A stretch of DNA of 64,000 bases from an uncultured beta proteobacterium (GTDB taxonomy: Bacteria; Pseudomonadota; Gammaproteobacteria; Burkholderiales; Burkholderiaceae_B), in contig CAIJKV010000205.1 of NCBI GenBank assembly GCA_903821335.1, forward strand, positions 62,001 through 126,000. The letters are read 5' to 3'. The position numbers and the translations under genes are program-made. How positions within the stretch are numbered: position 1 is the stretch's first letter; each line of letters starts with the position of its first letter. Below the pieces are notes generated by a model. That model was given only the letters and a program-made list of their open reading frames with translations, was not told the origin of the DNA and searched no databases. Positions 27,026 to 33,368 of the stretch are shown here, in pieces.

Positions 27026-27241
27026 TCAACGTGATTCAGAAACCTGCGCGTTGACAGGTGCTTTTTCAACCACCAGACCACGCTTGACACCACCGTCGAG
27101 TATGGGTTGATCCGAGAAGTTCTTGAACGCCAGCGTCATGGTGATCGCGCAGCCAATAATTGCGACCGCAGGACCCGCCATCAATATCCAGGGCCAGGGT
27201 TGACGCCACCAGGGGCCAGCGTAGGTGTTGTTGTTGGTCAT
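27026..27241 (-). CDS. ccoH: Short FixH/CcoH-like protein
   Basis: The 71-residue protein has PWWRQPWPWILMAGPAVAII leading into a single membrane helix, then DQPILDGGVKRGLVVEK, which resembles the post-helix segment of FixH. FixH proteins are usually about 150 residues with a periplasmic beta domain; that domain is absent here. It follows ccoG by ten bases, the usual place of ccoH. FixH is needed to assemble cbb3 oxidase; whether this short form is active is unknown. ATG 27241 is chosen over a start 14 codons upstream inside ccoG. Confidence 0.75.
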   Translation of the reverse strand: MTNNNTYAGPWWRQPWPWILMAGPAVAIIGCAITMTLAFKNFSDQPILDGGVKRGLVVEKAPVNAQVSESR

Positions 27242-27251
27242 GATGTCTTCC

Positions 27252-28787
27252 TCATTTCGGGAATATAAAGCTGGAGGCTTCACGCACCTCGGTTGCGACA
27301 GTGCCGTCCGGACGCGTGGACTTGGTCACAAATGTAATCGGATATGAGCCTGGCTTGGTGGACTCGGCCGGTACGCGTACGACGATGGGTACCATACGGT
27401 TGGTGGCCGGCGGTATATCGAGGTGCGAGGAAGACTGCGCAGTTTCACCCGTTTTGACGCGGGTGTCCGGTGCGTCGGCCACCAGGACCTTCATGCCTTC
27501 AAGCCCTTGGCCGGTAATAGAAAGTACGAGCGGCTGTTCAGAGGCATTGATGATCTGCAGGCGGTAGACGTTTTCGATCATTCCTCCGGCGACTTCACGG
27601 CCCAGCATGCCGCGATCGCGAATCACATCGACGCGCAGGGTGGTGCGTGTTGCCAGTGTGGCGATGAAGACCGAGATGATGATCAGCATCAGGGTTGAAT
27701 AAATCAGTACACGCGGTCGGATCAGGTGATGCCGGATCTCGGACACCGACAGGTTTTCAACCATGGCGCGTTCGGAGGTGTATCGGATCAGGTCTGGCGG
27801 GTAACGAAGTTTTTCCATGACCTGGTTGCAGGAATCGACGCACGCCCCGCAACCAATGCACATGTACTGCAAGCCATTGCGAATATCGATGCCAGTCGGG
27901 CATACCTGCACGCAAATGTCGCAGTCGACACATTCGCCCAAGCCTGCGGCCTTGTAGTCGATTTTGCGTGAACGTGAACCGCGTGGTTCGCCACGCGTCT
28001 TGTCATAGGTAACGACGAGCGTGTCACGGTCAATCATGACGCTTTGAAAGCGCGCATAAGGACACATGTATTTGCATACTTGTTCACGCAGGAAGCCTGC
28101 GTTGCCCCAGGTTGCAAAGCTGTAGAACAAGAGCCAGAACCACTGCCAGGGGCCCAGGGCAAAGGCCATCAAGTCGTGACCCAGGCCACGAACGGGAGCA
28201 AAGAAACCGATGAAGGAAAAGCCAGTCCACAGTGCAACCAGTATCCACAACAATTGCTTGGTCGCCTTCAGGCGTACTTTGCGAACCGACCAGGGCGATT
28301 CATCCAGGCGAATGCGGGCAACGCGATCACCTTCGATCTTGCGCTCGATCCACATGAAAATTTCGGTATAGACGGTTTGCGGGCATGCATAGCCGCAAAA
28401 CAGGCGTCCGGCGATGGCGGTAAACAGGAACAAGCCCAGGGCGGAGATGATCAGCAACAGCGTCAGGTAGATGACGTCCTGTGGCCACAACACCATGCCA
28501 AAGATATAAAATTTACGCGCGCCAAGATCAAACAGAACAGCTTGGCGACCGTTCCAGTTGAGCCACGGCAAACCATAGAAAATGGCTTGTGTCAGTGCAA
28601 CAAGAATCCATCGCCACCGGGCGAAGACACCCTTGACAGAGCGCGAGTAGATTTTCGCCCTGACATCGTTAATGGTTTCTTCTAAAGTCTCGCTGCCTGC
28701 CGGCCGCTCCCTCGCCCCTGCCGGTCGCCATGGTGGCGGCTGATCATTTGTGTTGGCAGGGGTCGGTGGAAGCGTTTCAACAGGCAT
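27252..28787 (-). CDS. ccoG: Cytochrome c oxidase accessory protein CcoG (FixG/RdxA)
   Basis: The 511-residue membrane protein has an N-terminal set of helices including FCGYACPQTVYTEIFMW and EQVCKYMCPYARFQS. Two ferredoxin-type [4Fe-4S] motifs follow (CVDCDICVQVCP and CIGCGACVDSCN). After another helix comes a periplasmic immunoglobulin-like C-terminal domain. CcoG has been reported to reduce Cu(II) to Cu(I) for delivery to cbb3 oxidase. It lies between ccoP and ccoH, the expected order. Confidence 0.96.
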   Translation of the reverse strand: MPVETLPPTPANTNDQPPPWRPAGARERPAGSETLEETINDVRAKIYSRSVKGVFARWRWILVALTQAIFYGLPWLNWNGRQAVLFDLGARKFYIFGMVLWPQDVIYLTLLLIISALGLFLFTAIAGRLFCGYACPQTVYTEIFMWIERKIEGDRVARIRLDESPWSVRKVRLKATKQLLWILVALWTGFSFIGFFAPVRGLGHDLMAFALGPWQWFWLLFYSFATWGNAGFLREQVCKYMCPYARFQSVMIDRDTLVVTYDKTRGEPRGSRSRKIDYKAAGLGECVDCDICVQVCPTGIDIRNGLQYMCIGCGACVDSCNQVMEKLRYPPDLIRYTSERAMVENLSVSEIRHHLIRPRVLIYSTLMLIIISVFIATLATRTTLRVDVIRDRGMLGREVAGGMIENVYRLQIINASEQPLVLSITGQGLEGMKVLVADAPDTRVKTGETAQSSSHLDIPPATNRMVPIVVRVPAESTKPGSYPITFVTKSTRPDGTVATEVREASSFIFPK

Positions 28788-28796
28788 GCATTACTC

Positions 28797-29741
28797 TCAT
28801 TTTGCCGCCACTGGCGCCGAGGCGGATGCCGTGACGTCGTGCCCACCAGACAATCCCCACACGAAGGCAGTCAGCAAACGAATCTGCTCGGTGGTCAGGT
28901 TGGCTTCTTGAGCGGGCATGCGGTTGTTACGACCGTTCAGGATGCCGTTGACAATGGTGGCCTCTGAACTGCCGTACAACCAGACATCATCGGTCAGATT
29001 GGGGGCACCCAGCGCTTTGTTGCCTTTCCCGTCAGGACCATGACAGGCGACGCAACTGTTCATGAACTCACGCTTGCCACGCACAATACGGATCTGATCA
29101 GCAGCGAGGCCAGACAGCGAGCGCACGTACTGGGCAATGTCACCAGCCGTGGCGGGATCAATGGAGTCTTTGAACGCAGGCATGATGCCATTGCGACCCA
29201 GCGTAATGGTCGCCTGAATCGCTTCGGGCGTGCGACCGTACAGTGAATCACCGTCAACCAGGTTGGGAAAGCTTGGCGCACCCTTGGCGTCAGAGCCGTG
29301 GCACTGCGCGCAATTGTTCAGAAACAGGCGCTGACCAATCACACGCGCTTCAGGATCCTTGGCGATGGCGGGAATGTCCATCTTGGCAAAGCGCGCGTAG
29401 ATAGGCGCGACCGAAGCGTCAAGTTGCGCCTGATCTTGCTTGACCTCTTGTGCCGTGGTGAACCCAAGCGTGCCCTTGTAGGCACCCAGCCCCGGATACA
29501 GAACCAGGTAACCCAGTCCAAAGAAACACATGCCTACGTACATGATGGTCCACCAGCGTGGAACCGGATTGTTCATCTCACGCAGGTTGCCATCCCAGAC
29601 GTGTCCGGTGTCTTCTACCTTGACGGTACTGACGCCCAGCCATTTACGTTGTGAGAATATCAGCCACAAGCACCAGAAAATGCCCAACAAGGCGATGCCG
29701 CCGACGTAATAGCCCCAAAAGCCGTTTACAAAATCGCTCAT
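28797..29741 (-). CDS. ccoP: cbb3 cytochrome oxidase dihaem subunit CcoP
   Basis: The 314-residue protein has two N-terminal membrane helices and two cytochrome c domains with haem sites CAQCH (144-148) and CVACH (230-234). It carries electrons from soluble cytochromes c to CcoO/CcoN. The N-terminus SDFVNGFWGYYVGGIALLG matches the two-helix form. Its ATG overlaps the ccoQ stop (ATGA). Confidence 0.97.
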   Translation of the reverse strand: MSDFVNGFWGYYVGGIALLGIFWCLWLIFSQRKWLGVSTVKVEDTGHVWDGNLREMNNPVPRWWTIMYVGMCFFGLGYLVLYPGLGAYKGTLGFTTAQEVKQDQAQLDASVAPIYARFAKMDIPAIAKDPEARVIGQRLFLNNCAQCHGSDAKGAPSFPNLVDGDSLYGRTPEAIQATITLGRNGIMPAFKDSIDPATAGDIAQYVRSLSGLAADQIRIVRGKREFMNSCVACHGPDGKGNKALGAPNLTDDVWLYGSSEATIVNGILNGRNNRMPAQEANLTTEQIRLLTAFVWGLSGGHDVTASASAPVAAK

Positions 29742-29908
29742 GGCCGATTTACCTCTTTTTGTTGCGGTTGTGCTTCGTCAGGCAGTGCGAACGGCAACAT
29801 CGCCGCGTCGTGATTAGCCTTTCGGCGACCTTTGGAAAAGGCCCACCAGACGATGCCAAAAAATGTGATCATTGCCAGAACGGTTGAAAGTGCGTTCAGG
29901 TAAGCCAT
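29738..29908 (-). CDS. ccoQ: cbb3 oxidase small subunit CcoQ
   Basis: The 56-residue protein consists of one hydrophobic helix (TVLAMITFFGIVWWAFSKGR) and a charged cytoplasmic tail ending KEVNRP. Size, topology and position between ccoO and ccoP identify it. CcoQ stabilises the oxidase. ATG 29908 lies nine bases after GGAGG; an ATG two codons earlier sits too close to that site. The stop overlaps the ccoP start by four bases. Confidence 0.9.
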   Translation of the reverse strand: MAYLNALSTVLAMITFFGIVWWAFSKGRRKANHDAAMLPFALPDEAQPQQKEVNRP

Positions 29909-29910
29909 GA

Positions 29911-30564
29911 TCATTTACCTCCGGCAGACTTCTGCTGGGCAGCGCGCACGCCAGTTCCGAGACCTTGCAGGAATGCAACCAGCGCATCTTCCTCAGACTT
30001 GCCAACAAGAGCTGCGGGTGCCGCCGCAATTTGCGCGTCAGTGTAAGGAACACCCACGATACGCAAGGCACGCATGCGATCACCAATGTTGGCGCCTTCC
30101 ACGGTACCCTTGGCAAGCCATGGATAACCGGGCATGTTGGACTCGGGCACGACCGCGCGCGGGTTGTTCAGGTGGATGCGGTGCCAGTCGTCAGAGTAGC
30201 GGGCGCCCACGCGCGCAAGGTCAGGACCCGTGCGCTTGGAACCCCACAGGAACGGGTGATCGAAGACTGATTCACCTGCGACCGAGTACGGGCCATAGCG
30301 CTGGACTTCGGCGCGCAGCATACGGACCTGCTGTGAGTGACAGCCAACGCAGCCTTCGCGTATGTAGATGTCACGTCCCATCAGGCGCAGTGGATCATAC
30401 GGCTCGACCCCGGGTGCCGCTTCGGTGGTGGAATGCTGGAAGAACAGCGGCACAATTTGCACCAGTCCGGCAAACAGCACCACAACAATGCTGGCAATGA
30501 TCATCAGGCCGATATTTTTTTCCAGCGTCTGATGTGAAAAGAAACCATGTTTTTCGTTTGCCAT
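29911..30564 (-). CDS. ccoO: cbb3 cytochrome oxidase monohaem subunit CcoO
   Basis: The 217-residue protein has an N-terminal anchor ([19 protein letters not shown]) and a cytochrome c domain with haem motif CVGCH (72-76), followed by the family sequence SQQVRML. It relays electrons to the CcoN catalytic subunit. It lies nine bases after ccoN and two bases before ccoQ, so the set is one transcript. Confidence 0.97.
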
Positions 30565-30573
30565 GATGTCCTC

Positions 30574-32034
30574 TCAGGCTTTTGCCGCGGCGGCGGTTGT
30601 TGAATGGGCGTTGTTCGGGATCGCAGGATTCACTGCGGTTTGCCCGACAACCGTTTTGAACACGTTGTACGCCATGATCAGCATGCCGACCAGGTACAAC
30701 GCACCACCACTCAGACGAATCGCGTAGAACGGCAGCGTGGACTTGACTGATTCGACGAAGCTGTAGGTCAGCGAACCGTCTGGCTCGGTAGCACGCCACA
30801 TCAGGCCCTGCATCACACCGGCAATCCACATCGAGGCGATGTAGAGCACCACACCGATCGTGGCAACCCAGAAGTGCACTTCGATCAGGCGCACGCTGTA
30901 CATTTTTTCACGGCCCCAGAGGCGCGGGATGATGTAATAGAGCATACCGAAAGTGATCATGGCGACCCAGCCCAGCGCACCGGAGTGCACATGGCCAATG
31001 GTCCAGTCGGTGTAGTGCGACAGCGCGTTGACGGTGCGGATCGACATCATCGAGCCTTCGAAGGTCGACATACCGTAGAACGACAGCGACACCACCATGA
31101 ACTTCAGGATCGGGTCAGTACGCAGCTTGTTCCAGGCACCGGACAGTGTCATCACGCCGTTAATCATGCCGCCCCATGAAGGTGCGAGCAGTATCAGCGA
31201 GAACACCATGCCCAAGGACTGCGTCCAGTCAGGCAGTGAGGTGTAGAGCAAGTGATGAGGACCTGCCCACATGTACGTAAAGGCCAGTGCCCAAAAGTGA
31301 ACAATCGACAGGCGATACGAGTAAATGGGGCGCTCGGCTTGCTTGGGGATGAAGTAGTACATCATGCCCAGGAAGCTGGTGGTCAGGAAAAAGCCCACGG
31401 CGTTATGACCGTACCACCACTGCACCATGGCGTCCTGGACACCGGCGTAGGCCGAGTAGGACTTGAACAGCGAAACCGGGATTTCGATGTTGTTGACAAT
31501 GTGCAGAATGGCAATGGTCAGGATGTACGAGCCAAAGAACCAGTTGGCCACGTAGATGTGCGCGGTTTTGCGCTTGACGATCGTGCCGAAGAACACAATC
31601 GCGTAGGCGACCCAGACCAGCGTGATCAGGATGTCGATCGGCCATTCGAGTTCTGCGTATTCTTTGCTGGTGGTGATCCCCAGGGGCAGCGTGATGGCTG
31701 CACTCAGGATCACGAGCTGCCAGCCCCAGAAAGTGAAGGACGCCAGCCATCCGGCGAACAGGCGAGCCTGACAAGTTCGCTGCACAACGTAATAAGACGC
31801 GGCGAAGAGCGCACTGCCACCAAATGCGAAAATAACGGCATTGGTGTGCAGCGGCCGGAGCCGTCCGTACGTCAGGAAAGGGATGTCCAGATTGAGCTGG
31901 GGCCACAGCAACTGCGCTGCGATCACAACCCCAACCAGCATGCCGACGATGCCCCAAACCACAGTCATGATGGCAAATTGCCTGACGACTTTGTAGTTGA
32001 AGGTATCGGCTGTTGCGATGGGCGAACTAGCCAT
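30574..32034 (-). CDS. ccoN: cbb3 cytochrome oxidase catalytic subunit CcoN
   Basis: The protein has 486 residues and 12 or so membrane helices. It holds the haem b and b3-CuB site histidines, visible in [36 protein letters not shown] and [15 protein letters not shown]. It reduces oxygen to water at very low oxygen and pumps protons. ATG 32034 ([15 protein letters not shown]) is chosen; a reading 22 codons longer runs towards the FNR box. A perfect FNR box lies 68 bp upstream, as expected for this microaerobic operon. Confidence 0.97.
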
Positions 32035-32102
32035 GATTTGCGTTCCTCTCTGAAAATCGGTTCTACATGCAAACATGATCAACTGAGACGTGTCAATCAC
32101 AT

Positions 32103-32225: not shown

Positions 32226-32384
32226 CTACTGTCCCGGAGTGGGACGATCGTCGTCGTTCAGGATCGCCTGACTGGCAGCGTCGGGGTCGTCGTATTGACC
32301 AGAAAACACTGCCCACCACAGTACGCCACCAATCAGGGCGATGATCGCCAGGGACAGGGGCAACAGCAGGTAAAGTATTTCCAT
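32226..32384 (-). CDS. ccoS: cbb3 oxidase maturation protein CcoS
   Basis: The 52-residue protein starts MEILYLLLPLSLAIIALIGG, a single membrane helix, then WWAVFSGQYDDPDAASQAIL with the conserved family run GQYDDPD. CcoS is required for cofactor insertion into cbb3 oxidase. It lies 12 bases after the ccoI-like gene and upstream of ccoN, the usual place. Confidence 0.9.
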   Translation of the reverse strand: MEILYLLLPLSLAIIALIGGVLWWAVFSGQYDDPDAASQAILNDDDRPTPGQ

Positions 32385-32396
32385 CTATCGTCCGCG

Positions 32397-33368
32397 TCAG
32401 GCTGCGCCGGGCTGCGCCGGGTGTGACTGAGCGATGGGCACCAAGGCGGGCGCTGGAATGCGGTACAGACGCCAGGCGTTGAGCACAACGGCGGTCGAGG
32501 ACATGAGCATCGCGAGCGCAGCGACCCAGGGTGTCACCAGCCCGATGGCGGCAAGCGGCATGGTCAGGAGGTGCCAGGCAAGGGAGCCATAGAGGTTTTG
32601 CCGGGTGATGCGCCGTGACCTGGCAAACAGCGCGTCTTGTTGGGAGGCAGTCATCTGGGGGTAAGCGGCCAGGGTGGCATGGGTGGCGGCCAAGGAGGCA
32701 GGAGCCGCAAGTGACAATGCACAGGGGCAACTCATGACCAGTAGCGACACCATGACGGGCATGGCATGTTCGGGGTTGGTCGCCCACCAGAAGGCCGCGA
32801 CAATGAGTGCGAGGGTCAACTGTGTCAGGACAAACAGGGTCGCCACACGATCGGATTGTCGGATGAGCGGGTCGCACAGGGCAACCAGCGCCTGGTTGGG
32901 TTCTGACTGGTCGACTGACTGACGCGCACGCATCTCAAAGTACCGGGCAGTGAGCAAAAAGGCGACGAACATGGTGACGGAGTCGAAATAGACCTCGCCC
33001 CGGCCCAGGATGGTCGAGATGGCGCTGGGGACAAAGGCGGCGATGATGCTGATTGCCACGGGAATGTCCATGGTGATGCGCCGTTGGGTCCAGGCGCGGA
33101 CCACGCCACCCCAGACTGGCCAGGCTGAATACAGGATGACCGGGACGGTGAGTGCGAAGCTTGCCCAGTTCATCAGGAAGATCGCCCATTCGAGGACGGC
33201 GAGGCTGTCATTGGGGCCGGCTTCTATGCGAAGGTATCCGGGTAACGCAAACATCATGACCTGCATCATGGCCAGCCAGGCGAGCCCCAGACGCACAAGG
33301 GTGCGGCGTCGGTCAGCCATTTCGGCGGGCGACAGCGGCCGGTTCAGGGCGAAGATAGATTTGGCCAT
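32397..33368 (-). CDS. CcoI/FixI-like copper P-type ATPase homologue lacking the catalytic domains
   Basis: The 323-residue protein aligns by eye with the membrane core of CcoI. It has two leading helices, the M1/M2 pair (MDIPVAISIIAAFVPSAIS, RGEVYFDSVTMFVAFLL), M3, M4 with the copper-binding CPC (residues 214-216), and M5/M6 with MLMSSTAVVLNAWRLYR. The actuator domain between M2 and M3 is cut to about 24 residues (no TGE). The phosphorylation and nucleotide domains between M4 and M5 are cut to about 25 residues (no DKTGT). No N-terminal metal-binding domain is present. It keeps its place before ccoS and an open frame. It cannot hydrolyse ATP as an ordinary P-type ATPase; a passive copper conduit or assembly factor is possible. 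Confidence 0.85.
   Translation of the reverse strand: MAKSIFALNRPLSPAEMADRRRTLVRLGLAWLAMMQVMMFALPGYLRIEAGPNDSLAVLEWAIFLMNWASFALTVPVILYSAWPVWGGVVRAWTQRRITMDIPVAISIIAAFVPSAISTILGRGEVYFDSVTMFVAFLLTARYFEMRARQSVDQSEPNQALVALCDPLIRQSDRVATLFVLTQLTLALIVAAFWWATNPEHAMPVMVSLLVMSCPCALSLAAPASLAATHATLAAYPQMTASQQDALFARSRRITRQNLYGSLAWHLLTMPLAAIGLVTPWVAALAMLMSSTAVVLNAWRLYRIPAPALVPIAQSHPAQPGAA

Follow-up and report, generated by a model that had tools for sequence, protein, structure and literature searches.

At the ccoI position of a cbb3 oxidase operon, the window, i.e. the whole 64,000-nucleotide stretch of DNA analyzed here, encodes a P-type ATPase homologue of 323 residues that is reduced to its membrane core. 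The sampled copies of this short form have a single origin, are conserved, are linked to the cbb3 genes, and no full-length CcoI was detected alongside them; copper binding, the direction of transfer, and the partners of the protein are what we infer. Based on sequence comparisons, we regard the short CcoI, with moderate confidence, as a functional ATPase-less CcoI descendant of single origin that serves cbb3 assembly, most likely through a membrane-embedded Cu(I) site.

The short ccoI gene and its operon

An earlier note on this DNA had placed a 323-residue protein in the ccoI position of a cbb3 cluster, and both the open reading frame and our reading of the operon confirm it. The frame extends on the minus strand from the ATG at 33368-33366 to the stop codon at 32399-32397 (323 codons), and the plus strand over 32397-33368 is interrupted by stops. 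The features are listed below; the names ccoS and ccoQ are presumed from gene position.

32397..33368, minus strand: mini-CcoI, a CcoI/FixI homologue cut to an eight-helix membrane core, 323 aa (ORF, alignment, AlphaFold)
32847..32924, minus strand: stub replacing the actuator domain, residues 149-174 (0/12 positions invariant in full-length CcoI retained in at least 90% of short forms)
32721..32729, minus strand: CPC copper motif in M4, residues 214-216 (invariant in 69/69 distinct copies)
32607..32702, minus strand: stub replacing the phosphorylation/nucleotide domains, residues 223-254 (2/14 positions invariant in full-length CcoI retained in at least 90% of short forms)
32571..32573, minus strand: H266 in M5, at the N of the full-length YN pair (H in 69/69 short forms, N in 22/22 full-length)
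32496..32510, minus strand: MxxSS motif in M6, residues 287-291 (M287 and S290 invariant, S291 in 97% of 69)
32226..32384, minus strand: ccoS (in 55/56 fetched loci)
30574..32100, minus strand: ccoN, cbb3 catalytic subunit (TIGR00780, 791.8 bits for a cut-off of 583; the true start may be internal to the ORF)
29911..30564, minus strand: ccoO (TIGR00781)
29738..29914, minus strand: likely ccoQ, 58 aa (ORF between ccoO and ccoP)
28797..29741, minus strand: ccoP (TIGR00782)
27252..28787, minus strand: ccoG, cupric reductase homologue (TIGR02745)
27026..27241, minus strand: short CcoH/FixH-like protein of about 71 aa, start chosen by us (PF05751 positions 1-36, E 3.6e-4, below cut-off)

The gene is linked to the cbb3 operon, as is characteristic of CcoI/FixI. 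The order in the window, 5' to 3', is short ccoI, ccoS, ccoN, ccoO, likely ccoQ, ccoP, ccoG, and the short FixH-like gene, with aceA upstream of the operon after a gap, as in 28 of the 56 relatives fetched. The order short ccoI-ccoS-ccoN-ccoO-ccoP was found in 50 of these 56 loci; four of the remaining six are without the later genes and two differ solely in the frame start of ccoS. In most of the fetched operons, ccoG follows ccoS-ccoNOP downstream from short ccoI.

For the CcoH/FixH gene located after ccoG (27026-27241), the match to the FixH profile was confined to its N-terminal part. FixH-profile matches at E 0.001 were detected in 102 of the 268 genomes of the family, mostly in short frames. 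A tie between short FixH and short CcoI was not supported, since short FixH frames also occur beside full-length CcoI (G003, G222, and G226).

Comparison with full-length CcoI

The short CcoI had partial matches only in NCBIfam, far under the curated cut-offs and none above, and its sole Pfam match was to positions 110-179 of the 181 positions of PF00122, the last third of the profile. The comparison was made on an alignment of 69 distinct short forms with 22 full-length CcoI. The N-terminal domains are absent from the short forms, the core beginning near residue 200-250 in full-length frames. Between M2 and M3, 98-107 residues are missing, and 215-277 plus 30 residues are missing between M4 and M5. 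Two defining features of P-type ATPases are lacking: the actuator domain with its TGE loop between M2 and M3 is absent (the letters TGE occur somewhere in the sequence in 5/69 copies), and the DKTG phosphorylation motif was found in 0/69. The loss of the N-terminal metal-binding, actuator, and phosphorylation/nucleotide domains, which had been read from the window alone, is confirmed by this alignment. The remnants are longer than the earlier note had estimated: not about 24 residues between M2 and M3, but a spacing from A148 to A176 of 27 residues in 44/69 copies (range 27-44), and not about 25 between M4 and M5, but a spacing from P223 to L259 of 35 residues in 64/69. Since the ATP-binding domains are absent, ATP-dependent Cu(I) transport by the short form is not expected and, judging from its sequence, the protein cannot be ATP-driven through its own domains.

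The domains might be borrowed in trans from another ATPase, such as CopA, or from a soluble subunit. A complete CopA-like ATPase is indeed present in the genome of the window and in two other genomes of the family (G249 and G250). This explanation is nevertheless highly improbable, as the stubs have been stripped of nearly all conserved residues and the genome of the window has no orphan actuator. A separate soluble actuator subunit was sought among its six PF00122 matches, and the five other than the short CcoI are frames of 698-923 aa.

The membrane part has been retained. All eight helices (MA to M6) of the P1B copper ATPase membrane domain are found both in the alignment and in the AlphaFold model, as are CPC in M4 and MxxSS in M6, in agreement with the earlier assignment of MA, MB, and M1-M6, of CPC at 214-216, and of an MxxSS-type motif. 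Short and full-length forms have in common most of MMQVMM (MA), MDxPV (M1), GExYFDS (M2), SCPCA plus the following proline (M4), and M-x-x-S-S (M6). Sixty positions reach at least 95% conservation in each of the two forms, and 64 residues are invariant across the 69 distinct short copies, although not every one of them is kept in the most divergent copies (N at position 101 in that of G250). The residue invariant in the short forms differs from the commonest residue of full-length CcoI at W31, G44, N67, W86, A111, P114, A148, Q183, H266, and P280.

The change at H266, absent from the first reading, affects the YN pair of M5, of which Y and N are each kept in 0% of the short forms. The tyrosine is replaced by W265 in at least 90% of 51 aligned sequences, and six further short forms (L173-L178) also carry WH. 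Since the YN pair is lost, the copper site would differ from the classical P1B site. Compared to CcoI/FixI, the CopA2-type P1B ATPase of cbb3 assembly, the short form thus shares the operon position, the eight helices, CPC, MxxSS, and the exit glutamate; it is devoid of the N-terminal metal-binding domains, of the actuator, and of the DKTGT phosphorylation/nucleotide domain, and has exchanged the asparagine of M5 for histidine and, mostly, the tyrosine for tryptophan.

The AlphaFold2 model (51 sequences; mean pLDDT 83.5, pTM 0.79) contains helices MA, MB, MB', and M1-M6 as expected. The ten best Foldseek matches in the PDB were all copper P1B ATPases (E 6e-4 to 3e-2), with query TM-scores of only 0.40-0.50; past rank ten, the only related match was to a zinc P1B ATPase (rank 19). 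When the PDB sequences were searched with a profile, the ten listed were those of eight copper, one zinc, and one cadmium ATPases. The best solved structures by both profile and fold were those of CopA, a CopA1-type exporter (e.g. PDB 4BBJ, 3RFU, and 7R0G), to which the modeled fold is only modestly similar. The low TM-scores indicate that the helix packing differs or is imprecise, and no precise copper site is therefore claimed from the model. The copper route of CopA can be mapped onto the short form by motif. In contrast to the short form, CopA is ATP-driven and acts mainly in detoxification, and the genome of the window encodes a CopA-like ATPase separately.

Distribution, origin, and selection

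In the genus of the window, 27 of the 32 genomes gave a match, comprising 26 short forms, two of them cut by contig ends, and one full-length CcoI (G003). For G016, of which residues 1-125 only are visible, classification as a short form was based on 81% identity. The same architecture was then sought in the 268 genomes of the family, at most 8 candidates per genome being scored. Matches were obtained in 205 genomes: 184 short forms (E of at most 2e-51, part of them assigned as short by E-value alone), 20 full-length CcoI (that of G259 fragmented over two contigs), and a distant match alone in a 761-aa frame of G175, left unclassified. The short form was present in 31 of the 43 genera, and 6 further genera had matches and no short form. 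Named carriers include Sheuella amnicola, Zwartia hollandica, many Achromobacter, several Bordetella, Pusillimonas, Paenalcaligenes, Candidimonas, and Parapusillimonas. The short CcoI is a family-wide trait and is not peculiar to the strain of the window.

The ccoN gene was present in 203/268 family genomes (E 1e-100 or better). The short form accompanied it in 180 of these and a full-length CcoI in 19; the 4 genomes with neither were G128 and G162, in both of which ccoN is at a contig start, and G198 and G200. Conversely, ccoN was present in 180 of the 184 short-form genomes, the exceptions being G016, G050, G097, and G078. In G078 (L183, G078:C1), ccoN is broken, the best matching frame being of 170 aa, and the adjoining short ccoI is open. 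In G198 and G200, ccoN is present and neither a short nor a full CcoI was detected.

A second, full-length ccoI was sought in the genome of the window (94.7% complete) and was not found. PF12156, the N-terminal cysteine metal-binding domain typical of CcoI/FixI, also had no match in this genome; it matched in 8/268 family genomes, none with the short form, the profile missing 12 of the 20 full-length proteins. No genome with both forms was seen in a partial check of the 268 family genomes. Ten short-form genomes gave two matches at E 1e-8. The second matches, accounted for in seven of the ten genomes (G051, G072, and G097 are left out), include split matches of one frame (G005, G008, and G025), a 718-aa ATPase (G109), the two halves of an interrupted copy (G115), and a CopA-like enzyme that is the only other P-type ATPase of G250. 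Two matches were recorded for each of three genomes of one genus (g2), G051, G052, and G072; short ccoI is duplicated in G052, and ccoN in both G052 and G072.

Outside the family, no single match spanning the query was found among the matches listed for the order, of which 399 genomes were searched and 241 gave a match; those listed were pieces of longer frames. The search of plasmids yielded only one distant match, to a P-type ATPase gene of Shewanella and over 48% of the query.

In a tree built with FastTree from 280 core columns of 72 sequences, the 30 short forms selected formed, without exception, a single clade (support of 1.0) located among full-length betaproteobacterial CcoI, and the 16 full-length proteins of the same family fell elsewhere. 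The short form arose once within the family, for the sampled copies. Selection was evaluated by the Nei-Gojobori method on pairs with dS of 0.1-1.2 (300/1485 pairs for the short form). Median dN/dS was 0.31 for short ccoI, 0.31 for ccoP, 0.26 for ccoG, and 0.15 for ccoN. Short ccoI is under selection, constrained like ccoP and ccoG and less than ccoN. Together with the recurrence across the family, this ratio bears out the proposal that the core was maintained under selection after the loss of the domains.

These data also bear on whether the gene is a pseudogene or an assembly artefact. Recurrence in 184/268 genomes and the presence of one copy on a single 1.73 Mb contig exclude chance or assembly error, and a deletion specific to the strain was rejected on the same grounds. 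In favor of a pseudogene, dN/dS is double the value for ccoN, the copy of G115 is interrupted, and one TGA lies inside the match of G118. Apart from G118, however, there was no internal stop among the short-form matches listed, 64 residues are invariant, and the ccoN match of G115 is also much weaker than usual (6e-131), both genes appearing to decay together. For the family, conservation across 31 genera refutes the pseudogene reading, to which we attach almost no probability.

The strongest argument that the short form still works is the inventory of G249 and G250, both listed as 100% complete. Each has a single match to the COX1 family, at ccoN, within an intact cco operon; a family search gave no match for cytochrome bd; and the only P-type ATPases are the short form and one that is CopA-like by its motifs. 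Their oxidase content resembles that described for Taylorella, in which cbb3 is reported as the single terminal oxidase (PMC3250509).

L182 (G257:C41), a 672-aa ORF of the same family, is a CcoI without the N-terminal metal-binding region and with room for the actuator and phosphorylation domains, i.e. a different, partial reduction. L181 (G003:C9) is the full-length CcoI that a member of the window's genus carries in its cco operon. Natural complementation in G003 was not supported, since its operon partners, too, resemble those of Cupriavidus or Ralstonia more than those of the window; this applies to ccoP, ccoG, and, less clearly, ccoN, with no difference in closeness for ccoO and weak tree supports. 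Two metagenome-assembled genomes titled Bordetella parapertussis (L027 and L036) have short CcoI 63-69% identical to that of the window and cores identical to those of copies from the genus of the window (L015, G005); both genomes seem to be mistitled.

Copper-route residues and candidate function

The CcoI of Rhodobacter capsulatus is reported to be ATP-driven and to depend on its membrane CPC (PMC8475189): CcoI without both of these cysteines supports 2% of cbb3 activity, and about 10% with added copper. Oxidase activity is reported to be almost gone in Campylobacter ccoI and ccoS mutants and to be rescued by excess copper (PMC8267372), indicating that some oxidase can form without any CcoI, a point against our reading.

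Residues of the copper route were taken from a study of AfCopA (PMC9433437). They were transferred onto the short form by motif. The exit glutamate is the one reported in work on LpCopA. M100, C214, C216, H266, M287, and S290 are invariant in the 69 copies; E125 is conserved in 96%, S291 in 97%, and E145 in 94%. D173, an entry site in CopA, is D in 68% of the copies and N in the remainder (22/69). Invariant residues thus account for 6/10 copper-route sites versus 64/290 core positions (hypergeometric P 0.009), an enrichment that provides only moderate support for a copper role.

Positions invariant in full-length CcoI were then counted by region as kept or not at 90% or more in the short forms, with helix boundaries set by hand from the model and the alignment. 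The periplasmic loops kept 9/10 of these positions and the two cytosolic stubs together 2/26. In the membrane helices, 20/28 were kept in the periplasmic third, 16/31 in the middle third, and 18/35 in the cytosolic third. The MB' segment kept 3/8. Conservation of the periplasmic loops and loss in the cytosolic stubs lean toward a relay on the periplasmic side, as far as a residue pattern can tell; counter to it, the middle of the membrane helices is kept no better than the cytosolic third.

A rival reading is a passive conduit, in which Cu(I) would cross from cytosol to periplasm, in the direction of the pump, either by following its gradient or by way of thiol ligands. Most of the CopA-type route is retained (M100, CPC, M287, and E125), E145 at the cytosolic entry is conserved in 94%, and MB' has nearly kept its net positive charge (+2.7 versus +3.05 in full-length CcoI). 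Against it, some cytosolic residues that do not vary in full-length CcoI are relaxed (R91, R94, and G99, with D173 changed to N in 22/69), while the periplasmic loops are kept. For a loss of the CopZ-docking platform the evidence is mixed, with single residues relaxed and net charge kept. Free cytosolic copper is very low, and an open Cu(I) path is hard to reconcile with this condition. We consider a conduit unlikely. A copper-free scaffold, in which the core would stabilize contacts with CcoN, CcoS, or CcoG and the cysteines would be kept for packing only, seems slightly less likely again. Many invariant residues are aromatic, proline, or glycine rather than ligands, including the new W31, G44, W86, and P114, and the excess of copper-route sites among the invariant positions is only moderate. 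The invariance of M100, of both CPC cysteines, and of M287, and the replacement of the M5 asparagine by an invariant potential ligand, H266, argue against a purely structural role.

The ATP-independent conduit or scaffold suggested by the earlier note stands in part: selection on the core, the lack of a phosphorylation motif, and the place in the cbb3 operon are supported, and among conduit, relay, and scaffold the conservation pattern leans toward a relay. We tentatively propose that the short CcoI acts as an energy-independent Cu(I) carrier or insertion factor, with its motor removed and its site re-tuned from Asn to His; it would be the only CcoI of most of the family and, in some members, would serve to build the only terminal oxidase. 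Copper would arrive at the membrane or periplasm by another route, e.g. CopA export or periplasmic chaperones. CPC, Met287, and His266 in M4-M6 would take up Cu(I), which would be handed via the retained periplasmic side to CcoN or its helpers. ATP-driven alternation would play no part.

P-type ATPases are assumed to need their cytoplasmic domains. Our observations suggest that, across most of a family, the pump has been replaced by its membrane part, copper being delivered to cbb3 without the pump's own motor. If this is true, selection of a motorless form in dozens of genera would show that the membrane core serves a purpose by itself, and the short CcoI would offer a small membrane protein for the study of Cu(I) binding in a P1B core without the ATPase cycle. 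It would also become testable whether the essential task of CcoI for cbb3 is to pump copper or to present it to CcoN. A distant parallel is provided by solitary ECF S-components, such as BioY, the membrane part of which reportedly works without its ATPase partner. Fold and substrate are unrelated, and the ATPase is in that case a separate subunit rather than domains cut from one chain. The earlier note knew of no described protein of this kind and, in the accessible text of the open-access literature (subscription journals being outside the scope), we likewise found no description of a CcoI or other P-type ATPase reduced to its membrane core.

The short form bears on how copper supply should be read in Bordetella and Achromobacter, for which the pump of R. 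capsulatus serves as the reference model. CcoI is mentioned once in each of two papers on copper in Bordetella, in one case with regard to R. capsulatus and in the other within the title of a cited work. Counting against a functional short form, a study of Bordetella bronchiseptica reports that no strain living on cbb3 alone was obtained despite high ccoN transcript, and the authors suggest limits in translation, assembly, or cofactors (PMC11257404). In Bordetella pertussis, ccoN is reported to be broken (PMC13038864).
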